From contig JABURP010000037.1 of NCBI GenBank assembly GCA_014762645.1, forward strand, positions 1 to 64,000: a stretch of 64,000 nt of DNA, written 5' to 3'. The DNA is from Crocinitomicaceae bacterium (GTDB lineage Bacteria > Bacteroidota > Bacteroidia > Flavobacteriales_D > Crocinitomicaceae). Positions 42,203 to 58,758 of the stretch are shown here, piece by piece. A program made the translations under genes and the position numbers. The notes below the pieces were generated by a model. The model was not told the origin of the DNA. It searched no databases and saw nothing but the letters and a program-made list of their open reading frames with translations. Each line of letters starts with the position of its first letter. Position 1 is the stretch's first letter.

Positions 42203-43162
42203 TTACTTCCAACGACTTTTTCTGATTTTTTTGCGCCATCCATTGCGCTTGATATACTTTCGTTTTTCAAAAGAATTGCGGTAGAGTGACATCCCGTAAC
42301 CCAGAGAAAGTTCATGAGTCATTCCGCCAAATCTATTCACTTTGCCCAGGCCAAGGTCATACGAATACACCAATTTAAAATCCTTAAGAAAAATGATACC
42401 AGCAGAGAGAATAATGGTATTGTCAATTCGATAACCGGCCGAAGCCCAAATCAGATTATTAATTAGGAAATTCATATCTAAAGAAATAGACATTGGGGCA
42501 CCTTTTGTCCACTTGATCATAGAGGTAGGGTAAAACTGGAAGTACGGATCCTGAATAAACCGATACCCACCTGTTAAGAAAAAATGCTGGTAGGTCATTT
42601 CACCAAACATTTTAGTTTCGGCTCCTACATTGCCATTGTTAAATAAATAAGGAGCTCCAGCACCTACGTGCCAATGTTTGCTTCTAACAAAAATACCGGC
42701 ACCAAAGTTTACATCTGATTTTTTAATGGTACCGCTAAGTGTAGGATCAACGCCATCATAAAAGGTTAGTTTGTCATATTCTGCTGTTTGCTGATTATAA
42801 CTCGCTTTTAAACCAAATGCCATTTGCGTGTTTCTTCCCAATTGAATAGCATAACTGTAGCTACCCCCTAACTCCAGGTGCTTAAACACTGTGATTTTAT
42901 CATATAACACCTGCAAATTAAATGTGTGTCCCCTAAATCCGTAAAATGCATTACCTATGAAACTTGAAGGCGCACCTTCAATTGCCATCCATTGATCCCT
43001 ATATAAAATGGATCCACCAAGATTTTTAGATTCTTCTATATAAGCAGGATTAAAAATCTGGTGGTTGTGCATATACTGGCTATAATTCACCCTGTTTTGG
43101 GCACTAAGCCTTAGGCTGGTAAGTACAACGACCAATAATAATATGTTCCTCTTCATCATCAT
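42203..43162 (-). CDS. PorP/SprF-family type IX secretion membrane protein
   Basis: A 319-residue outer-membrane barrel of the PorP/SprF family. A signal peptide ending LSAQ is followed by the family's hallmark start NYSQYMHNHQIFNPAYIEES and LYRDQWMAIEGAPSS, then beta strands to the C-terminus (HELSLGYGMSLY). SprF is required for secretion or attachment of the T9SS type B adhesin SprB in Flavobacterium johnsoniae, and many CHU_C proteins are followed by such a gene. Here the ATG overlaps the stop of the giant CHU_C protein as ATGA, so it is very probably its dedicated partner. Three successive ATG codons make the exact start ambiguous by two residues. Confidence 0.92.
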   Translation of the reverse strand: MMMKRNILLLVVVLTSLRLSAQNRVNYSQYMHNHQIFNPAYIEESKNLGGSILYRDQWMAIEGAPSSFIGNAFYGFRGHTFNLQVLYDKITVFKHLELGGSYSYAIQLGRNTQMAFGLKASYNQQTAEYDKLTFYDGVDPTLSGTIKKSDVNFGAGIFVRSKHWHVGAGAPYLFNNGNVGAETKMFGEMTYQHFFLTGGYRFIQDPYFQFYPTSMIKWTKGAPMSISLDMNFLINNLIWASAGYRIDNTIILSAGIIFLKDFKLVYSYDLGLGKVNRFGGMTHELSLGYGMSLYRNSFEKRKYIKRNGWRKKIRKSRWK

Positions 43163-46100
43163 CTCTTTATCACTATATATCCTGTTACTTTGCTATCAGA
43201 TCCTTCAACCATCTCAAATACGTAGTAATATGATCCTTCCGGAACCATATTCCCGTACATAACAATACCCGTATTCGGTGTCCCGTCCCATTCATTATTA
43301 TATCCTGACTTTTGATAAACGACATCTCCCCAACGGTTCATAATTGTTAATTTGTTATTCGGATACCGTTCAATATTTTCGATTTTAAAGAGATCATTAT
43401 AGCCGTCCCCGTTAGGGCTAAAACCACTAAATAATACCGGTGCCAGAGGTTCCTCTAAAATATAGGTGCCTTCCTGGGTGCAGCCGTTATCATCTGTGAC
43501 AATGACAGAATAGGTGCCCGCAGGTAATCCTGATACAAATTCAGTTGACCCACCAATATCCCAGGAGTAATTATAAGGTGAATTTCCTCCCGATACAAAA
43601 AGTTCAATCCAACCGTCACTACCTCCTTCTACAGAAATATTGTACCCGCTACTATACAAGGATAATTCAGCATCAATCGTGATGGAATCAGGCTCAATTA
43701 TAGTATATGATTCTTCAAGTGTACAACCTCTGTTATCAGTAACATTTACAGCGTATGTTCCGGCTGGTAAATTTTGAGCACTAACTCCGGCACCTAATGG
43801 AGTAGACCAGGAGTAGGAGTAAGGGAATGTCCCACCATTCACCATAACGCTAATTTCTCCATCAGTTTCTCCCCAACAGCTGATATGAGTTATTGTTTCG
43901 TCTATCCATAATGAGTCCGGTTCAGTAATCGTTGCGGTTACCGTATCCACACAACCTTCAGAATCAGTTATTATGCACCAGTAAGTTCCAGTATCTAATC
44001 CTGATATATCTTCAGTAACAGCTGAATTTGACCATTGATAGGAGAATGGTGGATTACCTGCATTCACTGTTAAATCTATGGCACCATTTTTATCACCAAA
44101 ACAGCTGATCTGAGATACTGTTGGATTACCTTCAGGTTTAACAAATACATTTATTGTAAAAGTACAGGTATCGGTATTACCATAAGCATCTTCAGCTACA
44201 TACGTCATTAAAGTCGGTCCGTCAGGGAAGGTACTACCGGATGGAAGCCCTGTTATTCTGGTAACGGTTATTGGTCCACAGTTATCAGTTGCTGTTGGTA
44301 CAGTGAATGTAACAACATTACTACATGAATATATATCCGGCGGACAAGTGATCTGTGGTCGAATCGTATCGGTCACGGTCATATTGAATGTACACGCAGA
44401 TACATTCCCACTGGCATCTTCTCCAAAAAGTACAATCGTTTGCTGATTGGTAACTACCGTTCCAGGTAACGGATCCTGTGTAACGATTACGGCTTCACAA
44501 TTGGCTGTGGTGTTTGCAAGCCCAGTATAATCGCCAACCACTGCATAACATGTATCATTTAAATACGCCACTTGATTTCCAGGACATCCAATAGTAGGTG
44601 CAATAGTATCTTGTGGCACTAAATTAAACTGGCATTGCCCGGTATTTCCAGAAGCATCTGTAACGGTCATGGTCATGGTCTGATTTCCTGTTATAGCTGT
44701 ACCCACCGGTGGGTTTTGTGAGATATTGGTGGTGCCGCAATTGTCAAATGCGGAGGTTAGTGAATCAAACGGTACAATGATATATTCACAATTGGCATTA
44801 AAGTAAACATCAATATTACCAGGTGGGCAGGAAATACTTGGTGATATCGTATCAGATAAAAGGATATTAAAATTACAACTGCTAGAATTCCCATTGCCAT
44901 CATCAACCGTTAAAATAACTGTTGTGTTGGTAGAAATAGCGCTGCCGGCAGAAGGAGATTGTGTAACGTTGAACGTACCACAATTGTCGGACCCTGTTAC
45001 CAGGCCAGTGTAATTCGGTACAGCATATTTACAGGTTACATCCACGTATTCATTCTGATCTGATGGACAGGAAGTAATAACTGGAGGTGTATTGTCTGAT
45101 GGAATTACATCAAAACTGCAATTCGTTGAATTACTAGCGGGATCTACTGCGGTAATTGTTATTGTTGTTGTACCATTAATAGCAGTCCCTGGTGCTGGTG
45201 ATTGTGTCACAGAAACAACACTACAATTATCACTATTGGCGGCCATAAAGGTATAATCGAGTAATATAAATTGACAACTACCATTGAAATTAACGAATTG
45301 ATCAGCAGGGCACGTTAAGGAAGGTGATTCAATATCGTTCACCGTTATGTCAAAAGAACATTGAGATGTATTTCCTGCTGCATCCGTTACTTCATAGGTT
45401 ACTGTTGTAACACCAATCGGGAAAATTGTACCCGAAGCTTGTCCGGCTATTAGTGTTGTTACTGATCCAGGACAATTGTCAAGACCCGTTGGTGTAGCAT
45501 AAGTAACATTTGCACCACAGACGCCAGGGTCATTTCCTACTGTAATATTTGACGGACAAGTTATGGTAGGATTCTCCGTGTCCTGAATTGTTACATCAAA
45601 AGAACATTGCGCCGTATTGCCCGCTGCGTCTGTAACTTCATAGGTTACGGTAGTTGTTCCTACCGGAAAAAGAGATCCAGAAGCTAAACCTGCAATTAAT
45701 GTTGTTGTTGATCCCGGACAATTATCTGATCCCGTAGGAGTAGTGTAATTCACAATAGCACCACAAACACCTGGGTCGTTAGGTTGAGTTATATTAGCTG
45801 GACAAGTGATTGTAGGACTTTCAGCATCAATAACGGTTACATCAAAGGAACATTGAGCTGTATTACCAGATGCATCAGTAACTTCATAAACAACGGTTGT
45901 CGTTCCTACAGGAAAAAATGAACCGGATGATTGACCAACAATAAGGTTTGTCACAGCAGCCGGACAATTATCACTTCCAACTGGTGTAATGTAGGTAACG
46001 GTTGCTCCACAAAGTCCAGGGTCATTATTTACTATGATATCAGCAGGACAAGTAATTACGGGTACTTCTGTATCATTTACGGTCACATCAAATGAACATT

Positions 46101-49100
46101 GGGAAGTATTTCCGGAAGCATCTGTTACTTCGTATATCTGAGTAGTTGTTCCAACAGGGAAGAATGAGCCCGGAGGCAGACCAGAAATCAATATGGTTGT
46201 AGCTCCCGGACAGTTGTCACCACCTGTAGGAGGAACAAAGTTTACTATAGCCCCACATTGACCAGGGTCATTAGAAACAGTAATATTTGACGGACAATTA
46301 ATCACAGGATTTTGGGTATCATTCACTGTGATAGTAAAAGAACATTGAGCCGTATTTCCAGATGCATCTGTTACTTCAAATGTTTGTATAGTCGTTCCTA
46401 CCGGGAATAAAGCGCCACTAACAAGACCTGAGGTCATGACAGTTGTTGATCCCGGGCAATTATCTGACCCAACCGGTGCAACGTAATTTACTGTAGCTCC
46501 ACATACGTTTGGTATATTGGAGACAGTAATGTCAGCCGGGCATGAGATGGTCGGGTTTTCTGTATCATTGACAGTCACATCAAAGGAGCATTGAACACTG
46601 TTGCCTGAGGCGTCCGTCACCTGATATGTTACTGTTGTAGTACCAATTGGGAATACAGTTCCTGAAGCCTGTCCGGCAATCATAGTGGTGGTTGATCCTG
46701 GACAATTGTCGGCACCGACAGGTGTTACATACGTAACCGTTGCACCACAAACGCCTGGATCATTCGTTACAGTGATATCAGCAGGGCAAACAATCGTTGG
46801 ATTTTCGGTGTCATTTACGGTAACATTGAATGAGCATTGGGTTGAATTTCCAGAAGCATCTGTTACCTCATAGGTTACTACTGTTGTGCCAATTGGAAAT
46901 ACAGTTCCTGAAGCTTGTCCAGCAATCATAGTGGTGGTTGATCCAGGACAGTTGTCGGATCCCACTGGAGTGACATAATTCACCGTTGCTCCACACAATC
47001 CCGGATCATTTGAAACGGTAATATTCGCCGGACACAAAATAGTCGGGTTTTCGGTATCGTTTACAGTGACATCAAATGAACATTGTGCAGTATTTCCAGA
47101 GGCATCCACGATTTCGTAGGTTACTGTAGTAGTACCTATCGGAAAGAATGTACCACTTGCTTGCCCGGCAATTAGGGTTGTAGTAGAACCAGGACAGTTG
47201 TCTGAGGTCACCGGGGCTGAATAATTTACAATAGCTCCACATGCACCTGCATCATTAGAAACGGTTATGTTTGACGAGCAAGAAATAGTGGGGTTTTCAG
47301 TATCATTTACCGTAATATCAAAAGAACACTGAACAGCGTTTCCAGAAGCATCCGTCACTTCATAAATTACGGTAGTTGTTCCTACTGGAAACACAGTGCC
47401 AGAAGCCTGTCCTGCAAGCATAGTAGTTGTCGCTCCCGGGCAGTTGTCCGATCCTACAGGTGTGACGTAATTAACAACTGCGCCGCAAAGTCCTGGATCA
47501 TTACTCACTGTAATGTTAGCCGGACAAGAAATAGTGGGGTTTTCGGTATCAATTACCGTAACGTCAAATGAGCATTGCGAAGTGTTGCCAGATGCATCTG
47601 TCACTTGATAAGTAACTGTTGTAGTACCAATCGGAAATACGGTTCCTGAAGCTTGTCCTGCAATCATAGCAGTGGTAGAGCCGGGACAATTATCCGATCC
47701 TACAGGAGTGACGTAATTTACTGTTGCTCCACACACTCCGGGGTCATTGTTTTGTGTGATATTCACGGGACAAGAAATAGTGGGGTTTTCAGTATCGTTT
47801 ACCGTAACATCAAAAGAACATTGTGCCGTATTTCCAGATGCATCTGTCACTTGATAAGTAACTGTTGTTGTACCAATTGGAAATACGGTTCCCGAAGCTT
47901 GTCCGGCAGTCATTGTTGTGGTTGATCCCGGACAGTTGTCAGACCCAACAGGAGTAACGTAGTTAACTGTTGCTCCACATAATCCCGGATCATTAGAAAC
48001 GGTAATATTTGCAGGGCAAGAAATAGTTGGGCTCTCCGTGTCGTTTACGGTAACATCAAAAGAACATTGTGCCGTATTTCCGGATGCATCAGTTACCTGG
48101 TAGGTTACCGTTGTTGTTCCTATCGGGAAAAGTGTTCCGGTAGCTTGTCCTGCAATCATGGTAGTGGTAGACCCTGGGCAATTATCCGATCCTACAGGAG
48201 TGACATAATTAACAATGGCACCACATACACCTGCATCATTTGAAACGGTAATGTTAGCCGGGCAGGAAATTGTAGGATTTTCGGTATCGTTCACCGTGAC
48301 ATTGAATGAGCACTGTGCCGTGTTCCCAGAAGCATCCGTTACCTGGTAGGTTACCGTTGTGGTTCCGATTGGAAATACAGTTCCTGAAGCCTGGCCTGCA
48401 AGCATAGTTGTTGTAGCTCCCGGACAGTTATCTGATCCTACAGGAGTTACATAATTCACTGTGGCACCACAGAGGCCAGGATCATTGTTAATAGTAATAT
48501 CAGCCGGGCAAGAAATAGTAGGATTTTCGGTATCGTTTACGGTAACATCAAAAGAACATTGAGCTGTATTCCCAGAGGCATCAGTTACCTGGTAAGTTAC
48601 CGTGGTTGTTCCAATAGAGAACAGGGTACCTGATGCTTGACCCGCAATCATAGTCGTTGTAGCTCCGGGACAGTTATCTGATCCTACAGGCGTGACATAA
48701 TTTACAATGGCTCCACACACTCCAGGATCATTATTTTGTGTGATATTCGCCGGGCAGGAAATTGTAGGATTTTCGGTATCGTTTACGGTAACATCAAAAG
48801 AACATTGTGCCGTATTTCCAGACGCATCTGTTACCTGGTACGTAACAGTGGTTGTGCCTATTGGGAATACTGTGCCTGAGGCCTGACCTGCAATCAAGGT
48901 AGTAGTCGACCCCGGACAGTTGTCAGCTCCAACCGGTGTAACGTAATTAACCACTGCACCGCATAATGCAGGGTCATTCGAAACAGTAATATTTGCAGGG
49001 CAAGAAATAGTAGGATTCTCTGTGTCATTTACCGTAACATCAAATGAACACTGAGCAGTATTCCCAGAGGCATCCGTTACCTCATATGTGACTGTTGTTG

Positions 49101-52100
49101 TTCCAATAGGGAACAAGGTACCAGAAGCTTGTCCGGCAATTAAAGAAGTTACTGACCCCGGACAATTGTCTGTACCAACAGGGGTGACATAATTAACCGT
49201 TGCACCACAAATACCGGCATCATTTGAAACAGTGATATTCGCCGGGCAAGAAATAGTAGGATTTTCTGTATCGTTTACCGTAACACTAAATGAACATTGT
49301 GCCGTATTACCAGAAGCATCTGTTACTTCATACGTGACAATAGTAGTTCCTATTGGAAATACAGTTCCTGAAGCCTGACCTGCAATCATTGTAGTGACTG
49401 AACCTGGGCAATTATCTGACCCTATTGGCGTAACATAATTAATTGTTGCTCCACAAATTCCCGGATCATTGTTAACAGTAATATTTGTCGGGCAAGAAAT
49501 CGTAGGATTCTCAGTATCATTTACGGTAACATCAAATGAACATTGTGCGGTATTCCCAGACGCGTCGGTAACTTCATAGGTTACTGTTGTAGTACCAATC
49601 GGGAAAATTGTTCCGGAAGCCTGGCCAGCAGTCATGGTAGTAGTAGCGCCGGGACAGTTATCCGTGCCAACAGGTGTTACGTAATTAATCGTAGCGCCAC
49701 AAACACCCGGATCATTTGATTGAGTAATATTCGCCGGACACGAAATGCTTGGCAACTGAGTATCATTCACCGTAACATTAAATGAGCAGGAAGCTGTGTT
49801 TCCAGAAGCGTCAGTGACTTCATAAGTTACCACTGTTGTGCCAATTGGAAATAACGCACCACTTACTAATCCTCCAGTCATCACTGTAACTGACCCCGGG
49901 CAATTGTCTGCGCCAACAGGAGCCACATAATTTACAACTGCACCGCATACCCCAGGATCATTGCTCACAACAATATCTGCAGGGCAGGTAATTGTTGGAT
50001 TTTCGGCGTCGTTTACCGTGACATCAAAGGAGCATTGTGCAGAATTACCAGATGCATCTATTACTTCATAGGTTACTGTTGTAGTACCAATGGGGAAAAT
50101 TGTTCCGGAAGCCTGGCCAGCAATAAGGTTTGTTACTGCTCCTGGACAGTTATCCGTGCCAACAGGTGTAACGTAATTGACTGTTGCTCCACAAATACCA
50201 GGATCATTATTAACGACAATGTTTGCAGGACATGAAATCGTTGGGTTTTCAGTGTCATTTACTGTGACATTGAATGAACAGTTAGCTGTATTACCTGAGG
50301 CGTCGGTTACTTGGTATGTTACAACCGTTGTTCCCACTGGAAATGCAGAACCTGGAGCAAGCCCCGCGGTTAATGCAGTTACTGCTCCGGGGCAATTATC
50401 CGTACCAACAGGTGCAACATAGTTCACTATGGCATCACATGATCCCGGATCATTATTTTGAGTGATGTTAGCCGGACATGTAATACTGGGATTTTGAACA
50501 TCATTGACAGTAACATTGAACGAGCAACTGGCCGTATTACCTGATCCATCTGTTACTTCATACGTCACTACAGTGGTGCCAACCGGAAATGCTGAACCGG
50601 AGGCTAGTCCTGCCGTCATGGTCGTGGTAGCTCCTGGACAATTATCTGTTCCTACCGGTGTAGCATAGGTGATCGTTTTTGTACATAATCCCGGATCATT
50701 ATTTACAATGATGTCTGCCGGGCACGTAATAGTTGGATTTTCATTATCGATTATTGTGATGTTAAAAATGCAAGATGCCGAGTTGCCTTGCGCATCCTGA
50801 ACAGTGTATTCAACTGTAGTTACTCCAACATTAAAAGTTTGTCCGCTGGCATCATTAATTCCCACACCCGGACTGCTGCCTATTGTTGCTCCGGACATGG
50901 TCCAGGTTTGGGCAGTAACACCACAGTTATCACCTGTAGAAACAGGAGAGATTCCATTAACCACAGCATTGCACATGCCTGGATCAACATTTTGACTAAA
51001 TCCTGCAGGACATGTTATGGTTGGGTTGATATTATCGGTGATCGTGACGGAAAATACGCATGTATTTGAGTTACTGGCTGCGTCAGTTGCTGTATACGTG
51101 ATAGTAGTCACTCCTTCATTAAATGTTGTGTTCCCAATAGTGTTTATTCCTACGAGTGGGGAGCTTCCAACTGTAGCGCCAGCCATTGTCCAGGTTAGGG
51201 TGGTGACCCCACAGTTATCTGCGTACACCGGATCAGCCGGATCAAGAGTTGCGGTACAGAGTCCTGGATCTACATTTTGACTAATATTCGCCGGGCAAGT
51301 TGTAAAAGTCGGTGATTCGTTATCTGTCACAGTTACTGTGAAACTACAATTGGCAGAATTACCGGCAGCATCCTGCACTGTATACGTCACTGTAGTGACA
51401 CCAACATTAAAGGTTTGTCCGCTGGCGTCATTGATTCCCGCTCCGGGGCTATTGGCTATAGTTGCACCTGTAAGTGCCCATGTTTGAACGGTGACACCAC
51501 AATTGTCACCAGTAGAAACCGGTGCTATTCCATTAACTACAGCGGAACAGTTTCCAGCAGCTGAGTTCACGGATTGATTTCCCGGACAAGTAATTGTTGG
51601 GTTTTCATTATCGGATATTGTTACAGTAAAACTGCACGTGTTATTGCTGTTTCCCTGGGCATCTCTGGCGGTATAAGTAATGGTCGTCGTACCCACATTA
51701 AAGGCGGTATTACCTACATAGTTAATTCCACTTCCTGGAGATGAGCCTACAGTTGCCCCGGTCATGTTCCAGGTAACTTCTGTAACGGCACAGTTGTCTG
51801 CGAAAACAGGATCATTTGGATCTAGTGTAGCTGTACAAACACCTGGGTCACTGGATTGTGACACATTTCCAGGGCAGGAGGTAACAGTAGGTGCCTGGGT
51901 GTCCAATGCTCCGGTTGTTCTGTATTGGAGTACTAACGACCAGGTTGTGGTTGGTCCGGCAGCACAGTTGATAGCAACTCCAGAGGCATTGTAGGTGCCC
52001 AAAGTAGTCCAGGCTGCTTGTGGAACGTTAATGGATGCCGCAGGAATAGTTACGGTTTGATTACCTGTATAGCCGTCACTTGCCATAGGGGCACCATCTG

Positions 52101-52434
52101 CTTCATAAGCATACCAAAGAAAATCGTACTGTGTAGGGAGGTCACATGTGAAATTTTGAGAGTAAAATACGTCATTGACAACTGTTGTTCCGGGGCAATT
52201 GGTTTCCGGTAATGCTGTTGTTCCTGAACCAAAGTTACCGAATGGGACATCTGTAATTTCGTAATACCACGTTGGATCACTATCGTCTGCACCAGCTGGG
52301 TCCATGTCTGAAATATCTGATGTTACAGACAATATCCTAAACTCAACAGTTACTTGTGACCAGAGCGAAAAAGAGGTCAACAAGTTCACGCAAAGAATTG
52401 CGGCCTTGAGTAAGAGGTTCAAACGTATCTTCAT
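43159..52434 (-). CDS. Giant HYR-repeat surface adhesin with type B T9SS signal
   Basis: A 3091-residue secreted protein. A signal peptide (ending LWSQ, about 27) and a 150-residue N-terminal domain precede about 31 HYR (hyalin, Ig-like) modules: four of 96-98 residues, 22 of exactly 82 residues (about 566-2369) and five of about 80. Typical module marks are NPTISCPANI, GSDNCPG, TYxVTDASGN and CSFDVTVNDTE, with paired cysteines. Three SprB repeats (about 2770-2990) and a gliding-motility-associated CHU_C domain (SPNGDGYNDLFKIENIERYP to GYIVIKR) end it. It should be exported by T9SS and act as an extended adhesin or gliding filament. The PorP/SprF gene follows with an ATGA overlap. Confidence 0.94.
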   Translation of the reverse strand: MKIRLNLLLKAAILCVNLLTSFSLWSQVTVEFRILSVTSDISDMDPAGADDSDPTWYYEITDVPFGNFGSGTTALPETNCPGTTVVNDVFYSQNFTCDLPTQYDFLWYAYEADGAPMASDGYTGNQTVTIPAASINVPQAAWTTLGTYNASGVAINCAAGPTTTWSLVLQYRTTGALDTQAPTVTSCPGNVSQSSDPGVCTATLDPNDPVFADNCAVTEVTWNMTGATVGSSPGSGINYVGNTAFNVGTTTITYTARDAQGNSNNTCSFTVTISDNENPTITCPGNQSVNSAAGNCSAVVNGIAPVSTGDNCGVTVQTWALTGATIANSPGAGINDASGQTFNVGVTTVTYTVQDAAGNSANCSFTVTVTDNESPTFTTCPANISQNVDPGLCTATLDPADPVYADNCGVTTLTWTMAGATVGSSPLVGINTIGNTTFNEGVTTITYTATDAASNSNTCVFSVTITDNINPTITCPAGFSQNVDPGMCNAVVNGISPVSTGDNCGVTAQTWTMSGATIGSSPGVGINDASGQTFNVGVTTVEYTVQDAQGNSASCIFNITIIDNENPTITCPADIIVNNDPGLCTKTITYATPVGTDNCPGATTTMTAGLASGSAFPVGTTVVTYEVTDGSGNTASCSFNVTVNDVQNPSITCPANITQNNDPGSCDAIVNYVAPVGTDNCPGAVTALTAGLAPGSAFPVGTTVVTYQVTDASGNTANCSFNVTVNDTENPTISCPANIVVNNDPGICGATVNYVTPVGTDNCPGAVTNLIAGQASGTIFPIGTTTVTYEVIDASGNSAQCSFDVTVNDAENPTITCPADIVVSNDPGVCGAVVNYVAPVGADNCPGSVTVMTGGLVSGALFPIGTTVVTYEVTDASGNTASCSFNVTVNDTQLPSISCPANITQSNDPGVCGATINYVTPVGTDNCPGATTTMTAGQASGTIFPIGTTTVTYEVTDASGNTAQCSFDVTVNDTENPTISCPTNITVNNDPGICGATINYVTPIGSDNCPGSVTTMIAGQASGTVFPIGTTIVTYEVTDASGNTAQCSFSVTVNDTENPTISCPANITVSNDAGICGATVNYVTPVGTDNCPGSVTSLIAGQASGTLFPIGTTTVTYEVTDASGNTAQCSFDVTVNDTENPTISCPANITVSNDPALCGAVVNYVTPVGADNCPGSTTTLIAGQASGTVFPIGTTTVTYQVTDASGNTAQCSFDVTVNDTENPTISCPANITQNNDPGVCGAIVNYVTPVGSDNCPGATTTMIAGQASGTLFSIGTTTVTYQVTDASGNTAQCSFDVTVNDTENPTISCPADITINNDPGLCGATVNYVTPVGSDNCPGATTTMLAGQASGTVFPIGTTTVTYQVTDASGNTAQCSFNVTVNDTENPTISCPANITVSNDAGVCGAIVNYVTPVGSDNCPGSTTTMIAGQATGTLFPIGTTTVTYQVTDASGNTAQCSFDVTVNDTESPTISCPANITVSNDPGLCGATVNYVTPVGSDNCPGSTTTMTAGQASGTVFPIGTTTVTYQVTDASGNTAQCSFDVTVNDTENPTISCPVNITQNNDPGVCGATVNYVTPVGSDNCPGSTTAMIAGQASGTVFPIGTTTVTYQVTDASGNTSQCSFDVTVIDTENPTISCPANITVSNDPGLCGAVVNYVTPVGSDNCPGATTTMLAGQASGTVFPVGTTTVIYEVTDASGNAVQCSFDITVNDTENPTISCSSNITVSNDAGACGAIVNYSAPVTSDNCPGSTTTLIAGQASGTFFPIGTTTVTYEIVDASGNTAQCSFDVTVNDTENPTILCPANITVSNDPGLCGATVNYVTPVGSDNCPGSTTTMIAGQASGTVFPIGTTVVTYEVTDASGNSTQCSFNVTVNDTENPTIVCPADITVTNDPGVCGATVTYVTPVGADNCPGSTTTMIAGQASGTVFPIGTTTVTYQVTDASGNSVQCSFDVTVNDTENPTISCPADITVSNIPNVCGATVNYVAPVGSDNCPGSTTVMTSGLVSGALFPVGTTIQTFEVTDASGNTAQCSFTITVNDTQNPVINCPSNITVSNDPGQCGAIVNFVPPTGGDNCPGATTILISGLPPGSFFPVGTTTQIYEVTDASGNTSQCSFDVTVNDTEVPVITCPADIIVNNDPGLCGATVTYITPVGSDNCPAAVTNLIVGQSSGSFFPVGTTTVVYEVTDASGNTAQCSFDVTVIDAESPTITCPANITQPNDPGVCGAIVNYTTPTGSDNCPGSTTTLIAGLASGSLFPVGTTTVTYEVTDAAGNTAQCSFDVTIQDTENPTITCPSNITVGNDPGVCGANVTYATPTGLDNCPGSVTTLIAGQASGTIFPIGVTTVTYEVTDAAGNTSQCSFDITVNDIESPSLTCPADQFVNFNGSCQFILLDYTFMAANSDNCSVVSVTQSPAPGTAINGTTTITITAVDPASNSTNCSFDVIPSDNTPPVITSCPSDQNEYVDVTCKYAVPNYTGLVTGSDNCGTFNVTQSPSAGSAISTNTTVILTVDDGNGNSSSCNFNILLSDTISPSISCPPGNIDVYFNANCEYIIVPFDSLTSAFDNCGTTNISQNPPVGTAITGNQTMTMTVTDASGNTGQCQFNLVPQDTIAPTIGCPGNQVAYLNDTCYAVVGDYTGLANTTANCEAVIVTQDPLPGTVVTNQQTIVLFGEDASGNVSACTFNMTVTDTIRPQITCPPDIYSCSNVVTFTVPTATDNCGPITVTRITGLPSGSTFPDGPTLMTYVAEDAYGNTDTCTFTINVFVKPEGNPTVSQISCFGDKNGAIDLTVNAGNPPFSYQWSNSAVTEDISGLDTGTYWCIITDSEGCVDTVTATITEPDSLWIDETITHISCWGETDGEISVMVNGGTFPYSYSWSTPLGAGVSAQNLPAGTYAVNVTDNRGCTLEESYTIIEPDSITIDAELSLYSSGYNISVEGGSDGWIELFVSGGNSPYNYSWDIGGSTEFVSGLPAGTYSVIVTDDNGCTQEGTYILEEPLAPVLFSGFSPNGDGYNDLFKIENIERYPNNKLTIMNRWGDVVYQKSGYNNEWDGTPNTGIVMYGNMVPEGSYYYVFEMVEGSDSKVTGYIVIKR
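45328..50739 (-). repeat. Tandem array of 22 HYR modules of 246 bp
   Basis: Within the giant gene, 22 consecutive modules of exactly 82 codons follow each other without spacer. Inner modules (roughly the ninth to the eighteenth of the array) are nearly identical in protein sequence while edge modules diverge, the usual mark of expansion and homogenisation by unequal recombination. The array length may vary between strains and is a likely assembly trouble spot. Confidence 0.9.
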
Positions 52435-54473: not shown

Positions 54474-54505
54474 AGCCCCGGTTTGGACGCCGGGGCTATT
54501 TTTTT
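54474..54505 (+). terminator. Plus-oriented terminator without a plus-strand gene
   Basis: AGCCCCGG (54474-54481) and CCGGGGCT (54490-54497) form a perfect 8-base GC-rich stem followed by ATTTTTTT. The T-tail is on the plus strand, whereas both flanking genes (lepA and the helicase) run minus; the helicase stop codon lies inside the 3' arm. See the finding on a possible small RNA. Confidence 0.7.
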
Positions 54506-57500
54506 GTCTTATCGTCCACTTCAAAGTACTGCCCAATTTCATGTGTAAACGACTCCCGGTTTTCCCAAAGGTCTTTGGTTAAGAGAATTTTAACATCCTT
54601 AAATCGTTGGTTTAGCACATTATATACCGTATATAAATCCTTCGATTCGCGTTCTTTCGTGCAGGGGTCAAGTAGCATAACTTTACCTGATTCATGTTGC
54701 ACAAAACAATAAATAGCAGAGCCATTTATATGGCTGTAATGCATTACACCTTTACGTGCCTGGCGATAAGGGTCATTTGCAATGGTTCTTGACAAAAATT
54801 CACTTGCATTTTCCGCGAAAGAAAGATAATCTTTGAGGCAGTTCACTCCTGGATTATCTGACATCTTGAAATCATCAGCTGTTACGGATGCAAAAAGGGT
54901 AATACTTTTCCTGGCCCTGGTAAATAACACATTAAGTCTATTGGATCCGCTTTCCCGGTTAACTGGACCAAAATTGTGTACGAAATTACCTTCAGGATTG
55001 GGTCCATAACCAACAGAAATTACAATGTGATCACGTTCAATTCCCTGTACATTCTCTAAATTTCGTATGAGAAGTTCATCAGCATCCAGCTTGTGTTTAC
55101 TTAGCGACTTTCTGATCTGATTTTCCTGCTCTTTTGAGAAGGCTATAATGGCAAGATCAGAAGGTTTATATTTTTTATCCTTTAGAAAATCTGCAATAGC
55201 TATGGCCTCAGTTATATTCACGCCACTTTCAAAAATACCATCTACTTTATTGAATGTAATTGGCGTATGATTTTCAATCGGTGGCACAGTCAACAGTTCA
55301 TTGTCATAAAAATGCAGGTTTGAAAATTCAATCAGTTCCGGATGTTCACTTCGGTAATGCCATTTCAGCATTTTTCCCGGATAAGATACATCTGCCTTGT
55401 CAAGTAAAGTAGGGCCTGGATTATGTGATGAAAAGAAAACACCCGGAGGCATTTGCTTGTCGTCTCCAACAACTACAACCTGCTTTGAACGCTGGATGGC
55501 TGGAATGGCATCTTCCAATGGAATTTGACTCGATTCATCAAAAATCACTACATCAAACAACTTTTTGTCGCATTCAATGCGTTCTGAAACAGAAAGCGGA
55601 TTCATAATCCAAACAGGATGTAGTTCTGATAGATACTCCCAGGTTTCTGAAATGAACTGTTTCACCGGCATGTGTCGTTGCTTTTTCGAAATTTCGTGAA
55701 TCAGTGTTTTCTTAATTTGACGCAACCTCTTTTTTCTTACTTTTTCATGCTCTGATAGTCTTGAAGCTGGTGTGGTCAACAACTCTTCTTTTTCTTTGAT
55801 TTTATCCTTTTGAGTAGCGATTAATTGACGAGTCTTAATTTTATAATTTTGGTTTAGACGCAGTTTTATTTGATCGAGTTCATCTTGTAAATTTTCCCCG
55901 GATAGTTTATCAAACCCACTTTCAAATCGAGTAACTTCAATCAACTTATGATAGTAAATCATAGCAGTTAATTGATCGACGGGACAATGATTAGTTGTAA
56001 TAAAATCACGAACTGAATGCGGCAGCATAAAATACTTTTGAAGATCTGAGTACAGCAATTTAAATTGATGAAGATCTTTTTTGATCTGCTCAATCAATTT
56101 TTGAATTTCTTCCCATTTTTCTGGAAGATTTGAATGGAAAGTAAAGCGACTTATGTGGTTGAATTCCTGAATCTTTGAATGCAGATTGTTTAATACTGAT
56201 ATCAATTCAATCGAATCTTCGTGTTCCAGGATTTCCACGTATGAATTGCCTGAAATTTCACTGAGTTTAGTACGCAATTGTAGAATATGAGGAATATCTG
56301 TTTCAGGGCTTTGGATATTGAAATTGTGTTTCAATTTAATTTCAACCTCCTCCAATTCAGTTTTTAAATTCCATTCTGTCCGTAATTCTTCAAGGAGTTG
56401 TTGTTTTGCAATATTCGATAGGTTGGGATCAAAATCTTTAAACGTCTCCGTTAATTTGTTATTTCTTCTCTTTAAAATCCCCAGAATTCCTTTAGGGGCA
56501 TGATGGTGTTTTAGAAGATCGATAAGTTCTGTGATCTCGTGTTTTGTAGGTTTGTTTGTCCAGACTTTACTGGCTTGTTCTGCTCGTTCAACTTTTGACT
56601 GTAGCAGTTGATATTTTTTTGCCCAGTTCCCAAAAGAACGATATGATTTTGACTCCTGATCCAGGAGATTCAACTGCGTTTTGTTGACCATATTCAGAAT
56701 GCTGGCTGCCAGACAAAATTCGGTGAATTTCTTTCGTGATTTATCAATTTTAAAGGTGTTTTGTACCCGCAAGATTTCAGTTAAAATTTCTGAAAGCAAC
56801 TGCAATCGTTTAGCCAATTTAGGAATGGGGTCTGATTCAGCAAATACTGATTTATCCAGATGAGTGAAGGTTGCCTGACCTAGTGTTTTCTGGTTGAAAT
56901 TAGCGATAAGTTTCTTCTCTAATTCCTGAAGAAAATTTAAATTTTGGCTCCACTCTTTCACATTCGGCAATACTCCTGTGTATTGTAATTCTTCCGGCTT
57001 GTAATGTGAGTCATGAAGTGATTTGATGGTGTTATAGTACGAATCTCCAAGGAGGGGATTATCTGCAGTATATTTATTCAGATAAAAATCCAGCAGGGTG
57101 TTGTCGATAAACTTCTCCTCCTGCGTGGAGAATGGTTCAGGTTTAATGAGTTTGTCATAACTTGATTTCAGGTCCAAGTAAAAAGTCTTTTTTTCGTCCT
57201 TTTCAGTGTTGAGAAATGCAGTGAGTCCTCCCAGTTTAAGTTCTTCAAGTCTGTCGTAAACCACCTGCAAGGCCGATCGTTTTTGTGAAACAAACAGTAC
57301 TTTCTTTCCCTGCGCAATAAAGTTTCCAATCATCCCTACGATAGTATGAGACTTTCCTGTTCCTGGTGGCCCCTGAATGACAATATTATCTGAATTTGCA
57401 AGGGTAATTGCCTCTTTTTGGGAATAGTCTAAATCGAGTATGGGGTAGATGGAATCGTCATTATCACGACTTTCTTCTTTTGAAGGGTGAAGCAACTTTT

Positions 57501-58110
57501 GAACCTGATGAGAGGGGTCAAGGATAATTGTATCATAATCTTTCCCTAACAAACTCTTTTTGTAATTGAAGTTACCGAGACATTTTTTTTGGACAAGTTG
57601 CCAGGAAGCCGATTCATCAAATTCAGTTGTAAGTTCGATAGAATTATTTTTACTGTCCATCCCAGCTTTTACCAGTTCAATGAATGTGATAATGTCATCT
57701 GTAAAATGTGGGAGTTCAATATCAAAGAAACGTGAAAAACTGTGCGCCAGAATTGGGTTTACGGCATAAGGGTCATCTTCTTCGGTAAGGACATTATATT
57801 CTTCACTGATCTTACGGTTAAGTTTAATCTGGCAAGGTTTATAGAGTAATGGCGATATGAAAAAGTTATCCCGTTGAGGTTCTTTCCATTTAATGAATAA
57901 GTAAACACACAATGTAGTATCCAGGTCATATTCTGATTTGTAAAAACGTGCTTCTTTATACAGTTTTTTAAAAGTGGCACCGGATTGCTGATCCAGGTCT
58001 CTTAACTTGTTGGATTTAATATGAATAAAGGGGTTTCTGGCAGAAAGATCATATAATCTGCTTTGAAGTCCTTGTAGTTCTTCGGAAATATGGTCACTCA
58101 GTTCGCTAAT
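54496..58110 (-). CDS. Large SF1 helicase with DUF4011-like N-terminus, probable ATT start
   Basis: A protein of about 1204 residues. The N-terminus resembles DUF4011 (LQSRLYDLSARNPFIHI). An Upf1/Dna2-type SF1 helicase follows: Walker A QGPPGTGKSHT, a long coiled-coil insert of about 500 residues, motif II VVIFDESSQIP, motif III VVVGDDKQMPPG, and motif VI LFTRARKSITLF. The last 100 residues form an unassigned domain. The first conventional start (TTG at 57912) would cut off the DUF4011-like part, and no ATG, GTG or TTG exists between it and the TGA of the upstream HAD gene. The best start is ATT at 58110, giving Met-Ser-Glu-Leu-Ser-Asp. Readthrough of the TGA or a base error are alternatives. 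The role is nucleic-acid unwinding; the pathway is unknown. Confidence 0.75.
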   Translation of the reverse strand: MSELSDHISEELQGLQSRLYDLSARNPFIHIKSNKLRDLDQQSGATFKKLYKEARFYKSEYDLDTTLCVYLFIKWKEPQRDNFFISPLLYKPCQIKLNRKISEEYNVLTEEDDPYAVNPILAHSFSRFFDIELPHFTDDIITFIELVKAGMDSKNNSIELTTEFDESASWQLVQKKCLGNFNYKKSLLGKDYDTIILDPSHQVQKLLHPSKEESRDNDDSIYPILDLDYSQKEAITLANSDNIVIQGPPGTGKSHTIVGMIGNFIAQGKKVLFVSQKRSALQVVYDRLEELKLGGLTAFLNTEKDEKKTFYLDLKSSYDKLIKPEPFSTQEEKFIDNTLLDFYLNKYTADNPLLGDSYYNTIKSLHDSHYKPEELQYTGVLPNVKEWSQNLNFLQELEKKLIANFNQKTLGQATFTHLDKSVFAESDPIPKLAKRLQLLSEILTEILRVQNTFKIDKSRKKFTEFCLAASILNMVNKTQLNLLDQESKSYRSFGNWAKKYQLLQSKVERAEQASKVWTNKPTKHEITELIDLLKHHHAPKGILGILKRRNNKLTETFKDFDPNLSNIAKQQLLEELRTEWNLKTELEEVEIKLKHNFNIQSPETDIPHILQLRTKLSEISGNSYVEILEHEDSIELISVLNNLHSKIQEFNHISRFTFHSNLPEKWEEIQKLIEQIKKDLHQFKLLYSDLQKYFMLPHSVRDFITTNHCPVDQLTAMIYYHKLIEVTRFESGFDKLSGENLQDELDQIKLRLNQNYKIKTRQLIATQKDKIKEKEELLTTPASRLSEHEKVRKKRLRQIKKTLIHEISKKQRHMPVKQFISETWEYLSELHPVWIMNPLSVSERIECDKKLFDVVIFDESSQIPLEDAIPAIQRSKQVVVVGDDKQMPPGVFFSSHNPGPTLLDKADVSYPGKMLKWHYRSEHPELIEFSNLHFYDNELLTVPPIENHTPITFNKVDGIFESGVNITEAIAIADFLKDKKYKPSDLAIIAFSKEQENQIRKSLSKHKLDADELLIRNLENVQGIERDHIVISVGYGPNPEGNFVHNFGPVNRESGSNRLNVLFTRARKSITLFASVTADDFKMSDNPGVNCLKDYLSFAENASEFLSRTIANDPYRQARKGVMHYSHINGSAIYCFVQHESGKVMLLDPCTKERESKDLYTVYNVLNQRFKDVKILLTKDLWENRESFTHEIGQYFEVDDKTKK

Positions 58111-58113
58111 GAC

Positions 58114-58758
58114 TCAGGTTTTAGTGAGGTCAAAAATATCGATAATATCCTCACGGACCAGATGTTTCGTTAACAGACCTGCCTTTTTCGCCCCCTCAAT
58201 GTGTTGTACAGAATCATCTATAAACAAAGTGGTGTTTTTATCCAGGTTGTGATTTTTTATAACAAGTTCAAAAGCTTCAACATTTGGCTTTCTTTGGCCA
58301 ACCAAATGCGAAAAATATGCTTTTTCAAACAGGTCCTGAAGTAATGTGCGGTTTCCAAATTGTCTCTCCATCAACTCTGAAAAAAACTGAAAATGAAGAT
58401 CATTGGTGTTAGAAAATAAAAAAATACGGTACGTTTTTTTAAGTTGTTCCAGTAATTCGATACGATTTGCCGGAAGATCCAGAAGCATAGCGTTCCAGGC
58501 TTCAATAACTACGGTAGGGCTAATGTTACCAGGTAAAAATGAACGCAAATATTCAATGAATTCTGTTGAAGTAATTTTTCCGGTTTCATACTTGTCAAAT
58601 ACCAGATCCTGATGGGCTTGCGTGTAAAGTTTGTCAAAATTTTCACCCCCTAATTTTTTGAATGCGTTTATTGTGAGATCATAATCTATATTCAGTATTA
58701 CCCCACCAAGATCAAAGATTATTGCATCTAAATTTTTAATATTTAGTTGATTTGTCAT
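58114..58758 (-). CDS. HAD-family hydrolase (YihX-like)
   Basis: A 214-residue HAD phosphatase. Motif I is IIFDLGGVILNID with nucleophile Asp16 and Gly at the usual second-Asp position, as in YihX-like and haloacid-dehalogenase-like relatives. Motif II is FLFSNTND, motif III the Lys in GQRKPNVEAF, and motif IV TLFIDDSVQHIEGAKKAGL. A helical cap lies between about 25 and 100. The substrate is probably a sugar phosphate, not determinable further. Its TGA is followed in the same frame, with only one codon between, by the inferred ATT start of the helicase, so the two genes are co-transcribed. Confidence 0.87.
   Translation of the reverse strand: MTNQLNIKNLDAIIFDLGGVILNIDYDLTINAFKKLGGENFDKLYTQAHQDLVFDKYETGKITSTEFIEYLRSFLPGNISPTVVIEAWNAMLLDLPANRIELLEQLKKTYRIFLFSNTNDLHFQFFSELMERQFGNRTLLQDLFEKAYFSHLVGQRKPNVEAFELVIKNHNLDKNTTLFIDDSVQHIEGAKKAGLLTKHLVREDIIDIFDLTKT

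Follow-up and report, generated by a model that had tools for sequence, protein, structure and literature searches.

AUU start codons are already known in bacteria, and in Escherichia coli they are used by infC, the gene for IF3, and by pcnB. Bacteroidota mostly have no Shine-Dalgarno sequences, and an A at position -3 is favoured in Flavobacterium. AUU is described in PMC4611024 as a bacterial start codon against which IF3 discriminates in general, and leaderless translation is said there to need AUG, for which GUG, UUG and CUG cannot be substituted. According to PMC6847099, the -7 promoter element has the consensus TAHHTTTG and transcripts in Flavobacterium begin 4-5 nt after it. For E. coli, a decrease of reinitiation with intercistronic distance is described in PMC2268962. 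What is new in the present case is a helicase gene with recurrent ATN starts and with relatives started by TTG or GTG; a literature search in one open library, which is weak evidence of absence, gave nothing on a helicase of this kind.

The window analysed here is a stretch of 64,000 nucleotides from a bacterium of the family Crocinitomicaceae. On its minus strand, a gene for a HAD-family hydrolase is directly followed by the open frame of a DUF4011-type helicase (54496-58113, 1205 codons), and the features of the locus are listed in Table 1. The initial annotation had the helicase frame opening right after the in-frame TGA of the HAD gene, and this is how the minus strand reads, with GTC ATT AGC GAA CTG as the codons directly after the TGA. 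It was also right in naming TTG 57912 as the first conventional start, while the open codons between the HAD stop and this TTG, none of which is ATG, GTG or TTG, number 67 and not the 66 it had counted. The near-cognate codons in this part of the frame are, by their first base, ATT 58110, CTG 58101, ATT 58089, ATT 58026, ATT 58020, CTG 57996, CTG 57963 and CTG 57924.

Table 1. Features of the HAD-helicase locus (window positions).
Feature	Position	Strand	Basis or remark
HAD-family hydrolase, ATG start, directly 5' of helicase	58114..58758	minus	ORF and domain search
TATTTTTG, in full agreement with the -7 consensus TAHHTTTG of Bacteroidota	58131..58138	minus	in 3' end of HAD gene
HAD stop codon TGA, in helicase frame	58114..58116	minus	sequence
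DUF4011-type SF1 (Upf1-like) helicase CDS, taken from ATT 58110	54496..58110	minus	1204 aa; Pfam matches and alignment
ATT, best candidate start	58108..58110	minus	alignment columns and STOP-NNN-ATA of the sister genome
CTG, rival candidate start	58099..58101	minus	column -11, shared with TTG start of G025
Conserved N-terminal core LQSRLYDLSARNPF	58027..58068	minus	5' of first NTG; tblastn and alignment
TTG, first ATG/GTG/TTG of helicase frame	57910..57912	minus	too far 3' to begin the conserved protein

For judging the stretch before the first NTG, the background sample consisted of the window and 20 other stretches of the same genome (277,518 bp), which amount to 341,518 bp or about 8% of the genome and contain 228 coding-like ORFs. 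The distance from the stop codon to the first NTG in these ORFs has a median of 4 codons and a 99th percentile of 43. The 5' part of the helicase has a coding score of +9.7 bits, the highest among the 228 ORFs (the runner-up has 6.7), and the single ORF with a longer stretch before its NTG (74 codons) is non-coding there by score (-9.7 bits). A tblastn search with the N-terminal 171 residues as query gave matches in all eight relatives tried, with 34-47% identity, and in an alignment of 15 full-length sequences including that of the window, residues L20, S24, N27, L37, E61, L64 and T66 are invariant before residue 68. Over 56 codons compared between the window and its sister genome G001, there are 23, 12 and 25 changes at the first, second and third codon positions, respectively, and 32 residues are identical, showing protection of the second position. 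Because both this pattern and the background scan show coding, a chance open stretch is rejected, and the conserved-looking N-terminus that had been noted before the TTG is borne out by the alignment and by the top coding score. A start at TTG 57912 is rejected because the N-terminal stretch before it is conserved. By these comparisons the stretch encoded before the first NTG is a genuine N-terminus, and a start codon other than ATG, GTG or TTG is needed for the window helicase. Gene callers limited to these three codons would trim about 67 residues from its N-terminus. The background sample holds one more ORF of interest, L232:13283-14548 (minus strand), presumably for a tail-fibre-like protein, which has 43 open codons before its first NTG with a coding score of 5.0 bits and may be another case of a non-ATG start or a frameshift.

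Concerning the protein family, Pfam matches were obtained to DUF4011 (PF13195; residues 45-123, 26.1 bits for a cut-off of 22.2), AAA_11 (60.7 bits) and AAA_12 (53.2 bits; cut-off of 27 for both). The SF1 Upf1-like signature is present as AAA_11 and AAA_12 with the P-loop GPPGTGKS and the DExx box DESSQ, and relatives in PDB are SEN1, Upf1 and SMUBP2. Two anti-phage proteins were considered and rejected, since the scores are far below the NCBIfam equivalog cut-offs: 332.2 bits for Hhe (NF042953, cut-off 2000) and 474.3 bits for ProA (NF058533, cut-off 1500). The match to PDC-S37 of PADLOC, likewise an anti-phage protein, is strong and is taken as a lead only, because the PADLOC library gives no cut-off. 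A contig search with the single helicase protein as query gave no match; when alignment A1 was the query, distant DUF4011 helicases with 26-41% identity were among the matches listed (80 kept of at least 419), and these relatives were used only for placing the family. Elsewhere on the minus strand of the window (43159-52434), there is an ORF of 3091 aa that, judged by eye, consists of numerous similar units of about 80 residues.

From 240 genomes of the family, 17 orthologues including that of the window (group 1) were collected, and none was dropped from the counts; L039 and L040 are incomplete genes whose N-termini are intact, and in L036 the ATG is preceded, three codons earlier, by a TTG. 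ATG is the start codon in all nine orthologues of the genus g11, so weak starts are not universal in this helicase, and in none of the eight orthologues outside g11. Among these eight, G002 has a GTG start, and G003, G010 and G025 have TTG start candidates. In the window, G001 (L004) and G140 (L038), there is no ATG, GTG or TTG between the upstream stop codon and the conserved core, and near-cognate codons are found in their place in the latter two as well (ATA in G001, ATC/ATT in G140). G022 (L010) has two in-frame TTGs, one inside the -7 box (TAACTTTG) and one farther upstream, followed by ATT and ATC. Since both TTGs are at or upstream of the predicted promoter, neither should be included in the mRNA, and G022 is probably without a usable NTG. 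In the phylogenetic tree, the window and G001 are sisters (99/98), as are G022 and G140 (99/99), and the genes without usable NTG thus form two pairs; the join of G022 and G140 is less safe, because the unusual amino-acid make-up of both rows can join branches falsely.

As controls, the start codons of three other genes were read in the same eight genomes. ATG was found in 5/6 HAD genes, 6/8 genes for the IGHMBP2-like SF1 helicase and 4/4 LytTR genes (15/18 in total), and the difference from 0/8 for the DUF4011 helicase gives a Fisher p of 1.1e-4, which is not corrected for relatedness and is to be read with the fact that the counts are not independent because the genomes are related. When all loci read are included, HAD genes have ATG in 13 and GTG in 2 of 15 (from 17 loci, with none in L010 and L038). 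The IGHMBP2-like helicase has ATG in 20/22, the two GTG being those of the window's genome and its sister (24 loci, of which 22 were read by eye; L147, without the motif, and L153, which is cut, were omitted). For LytTR, eight of nine loci read have ATG and L037 has TTG or other; only the four in non-g11 genomes are part of the 18 above. The absence of ATG outside g11, together with the recurrent non-ATG starts, suggests a wider trait by which translation of this helicase is kept weak.

The promoter-like box in the 3' end of the HAD gene would, with a spacing of 5 nt to the transcript start, give a predicted leader of 15 nt to ATT 58110. A box of the form TAHHTTTR is located 54-62 nt before the core in five of the eight non-g11 orthologues, and its last base is G, as in the consensus, in the window, G010, G022 and G140 and A in G003. 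No matching box was found in the helicase upstream regions of G001, G002 and G025, and in g11 a box is present in one of nine, at 79 nt from the core. The probability of obtaining at least five of eight by chance is 3.5e-4 when 110-nt windows at the same loci are used, and 5e-8 for a 16-nt window, which was picked after seeing the data. The window's box overlaps codons for a conserved stretch of HAD (DI.DIF), which, like the missing boxes of G001, G002 and G025, counts against the promoter reading. In a scan upstream of 215 genes in the window and in stretches L219-L238 of its genome, TAHHTTTG was found 50 times vs 9.9 in shuffles, and TAHHTTTA 27 times vs 19.9. Since TAHHTTTG is found 3-7 nt before ATG in 10 of the 215 genes, short leaders occur in this genome, and leaderless or near-leaderless mRNAs may be common in it. 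Two related arrangements were seen at other loci. Between the promoter-like TACATTTG and the TTG start of the G010 helicase (L005) there is ATATGTAG, in which a stop codon comes right after an ATG. The GTG starts of the IGHMBP2-like helicase are 6 nt (L132, window's genome, equal to L002:604-2433) and 4 nt (L133, G001) after TANNTTTR, and the geometry of box and start may therefore extend to other helicases.

The infC gene provides an internal comparison for ATN starts. In the window's genome (L156, G000:C17:59244-59744), it has ATA behind AGGAGG with no NTG before the core, and ATA, likewise with no NTG ahead of the core, is found in the same place in all 13 genomes read from g1, g8, g11 and g20, preceded by GGAG in 11 of them and by GGGGG in G002 and G022. 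The eight genomes read from genera of group 2, the distant helicases treated below, have ATG, and G025 has TTG or none. These counts are from 24 genomes searched, with 23 matches, 22 of which are in the main count; L215 (ATG) is outside the count and G140 gave no match. Because infC has ATA without NTG, the lineage would initiate at an ATN codon, if this reading of infC is right.

For choosing the start codon of the window helicase, alignment columns were numbered in codons, going upstream from the leucine of the core. In column -14 there is ATT in the window, G003 and G022, and the TTG start of G010 is in the same column; ATA is in column -15 in G001, and ATT is in column -13 in G140. In addition, the HAD gene and the helicase are connected by STOP-NNN-ATT in the window and by STOP-NNN-ATA in its sister. 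We consider ATT 58110 to be probably the actual start on the basis of these patterns, with CTG 58101 as the main rival and little likelihood left for other codons or an error. The initial annotation had regarded it as the only sensible initiation point; it remains the best single candidate, and the word "only" is too strong because CTG 58101, which it had passed over, is in the column of the G025 start. A protein started at this CTG would have 1201 aa and begin with (M)SDHISEELQG..., the codons in column -11 (CTG AGT GAC in the window, TTG AGC GAT in G025) are much alike, the CTG has an A at -6, and the column is within the range of likely group 1 starts, which is from -9 to -17 or further. 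This choice is nevertheless rather unlikely: G001 has CTA in the column and, lacking any CTG ahead of the core, would require another start (ATA), G140 has no CTG there, the CTG of G022 is just 3 codons before the core, and start-like codons are found in column -14 in the window, G003, G010 and G022. Both ATT 58110 and CTG 58101 have G instead of A at -3, and, in contrast to infC, neither is preceded by a Shine-Dalgarno sequence. Under either codon the biology would be nearly the same, because CTG is also a near-cognate weak start. The initial annotation had further raised a sequencing error from ATG to ATT; an error of sequencing or assembly that altered an ATG at 58110, or disguised another NTG start, might be suspected in an assembly of 128 contigs such as that of the window, but it is very unlikely because the orthologue in the sister G001, a genome in one contig and about 99% complete, is also without NTG. 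The same is true of G140 and probably G022, and non-ATG starts are recurrent in this helicase gene.

With ATT 58110 as the favoured start, the contribution of the HAD gene is to be weighed. HAD and helicase are in one frame in the window, G001, G003 and G091, which would permit a HAD-helicase fusion by frameshifting past the TGA or by its readthrough, the latter having been offered in the initial annotation. This has next to no likelihood, because the relative frame is not conserved (it differs in 11 of the 15 orthologues having HAD) and two orthologues, G022 and G140, have no HAD within 1.4 kb upstream; the in-frame stop also differs, being TGA in the window and TAA in the other three. Ribosomes that end HAD might alternatively reinitiate at the AUU 3 nt downstream, in which case the promoter-like box would be a chance product of HAD codons. 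STOP-NNN-ATW is common to the window and G001, and the end of HAD is within or beside the helicase 5' region in most of the 15 orthologues with HAD. Such coupling is possible and somewhat doubtful as the explanation, since G022 and G140, the other pair without usable NTG, have no upstream HAD, and the boxes are at a near-fixed distance in five of the eight non-g11 orthologues. It is compatible with an AUU start served by its own promoter, and the two do not exclude each other.

On the whole, we favour the explanation that translation of the helicase begins at a near-cognate codon, with the AUU at 58110 as the most likely one, and that this is an instance of a wider trait, the weak translation of this DUF4011 helicase. 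Conserved weak initiation, plausibly IF3-sensitive, is better supported than the autoregulation suggested for the locus earlier. In the proposed mechanism, the box in the HAD 3' end would produce an mRNA whose 15-nt leader has no Shine-Dalgarno sequence, pairing of fMet-tRNA with AUU at 58110 would be poor, and because IF3 would discriminate against the AUU complex, few helicase molecules would be made, and more when IF3 is short. On a long transcript, reinitiation by ribosomes that have finished HAD, 3 nt before the AUU, may contribute. The purpose may be that very few copies of the helicase are needed or that an excess is harmful, and harm in excess is a guess.

Distant DUF4011 helicases of about 30% identity (group 2) are found in many other genera of Crocinitomicaceae. 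We counted 68 loci (from among L157-L196 and L013-L051), and more matches exist than loci taken in; L012 (masked and reading N) and L022, L029 and L032 (cut N-termini) were omitted. The start was defined as the NTG closest to column -22 in the range from -20 to -28, so that any ATN start would have been missed in this group. The start column is near-fixed (42 at -22 and 15 at -21), and the codons are TTG in 30, ATG in 28 and GTG in 10, i.e., TTG or GTG in 40/68, with non-ATG starts in nine of 16 genera. In 36 of the 68 loci the start is preceded by TANNTTTR at a distance of 3-7 nt (exactly 5 nt in 29 of them), as compared with a mean of 0.7 and a maximum of 3 in shuffled upstream regions. The element precedes TTG or GTG in 28/40 and ATG in 8/28 (p 0.0012), and in the IGHMBP2 control, where the start was sought among ATG and GTG alone, it was found in 3/22. 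No G is present at the two H positions in any of the 36 elements, as expected of a -7 element. The last base is A in all 36 (TAHHTTTA), whereas a G is near-invariant there in the published element and is also the last base of the form enriched in the window's genome, and TAHHTTTG at 3-7 nt before the start was found in 0/68 loci. The element may be either a weak or lineage-specific form of promoter or some other conserved element. With the spacing of Flavobacterium, mRNAs from the loci that have the element would lack a leader and open with UUG or GUG, and this reading is weakened because the element ends in A and not in the consensus G. If the element is a promoter, it provides a sharp test of whether Bacteroidota ribosomes use UUG and GUG at leaderless 5' ends.

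A more extended and tentative reading, which we regard as less likely to hold, is a family-wide throttle of the DUF4011 helicase, in which transcripts would start, from a promoter, on a non-AUG start codon or no more than about 15 nt from it, and IF3 would set the level. It would take the form of leaderless UUG or GUG in many group-2 genera and of AUU, AUA or AUC in two group-1 pairs including that of the window; its probability is lowered because the final base of the group-2 element is A, and not the consensus G, throughout the 36 loci. If it is true, non-AUG initiation on leaderless or near-leaderless mRNAs, which is thought not to work in E. coli, would occur naturally, and IF3, itself AUA-started in g1, g8, g11 and g20, would set the helicase level. 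Irrespective of this, a helicase gene with recurring ATN, TTG and GTG starts, and with no ATG outside one genus, offers repeated natural cases in which the choice of start codon can be studied in bacteria mostly without Shine-Dalgarno sequences.

In comparison with known systems, group 2 resembles leaderless mRNAs in that TAHHTTTA is mostly 5 nt before the start, which corresponds to the spacing from promoter to transcript start in Flavobacterium, and differs from them in the final A of the element and in the use of TTG or GTG in 40/68 loci. The window helicase differs from leaderless mRNAs in its predicted 15-nt leader. It resembles infC and pcnB in that an ATN codon takes the place of ATG, GTG or TTG and in the discrimination by IF3 that is to be expected. 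It differs from these two in that its product is a helicase, and not a translation or RNA-tailing factor, and from infC of its own lineage in that its ATN codon is used, on our reading, with no Shine-Dalgarno sequence.
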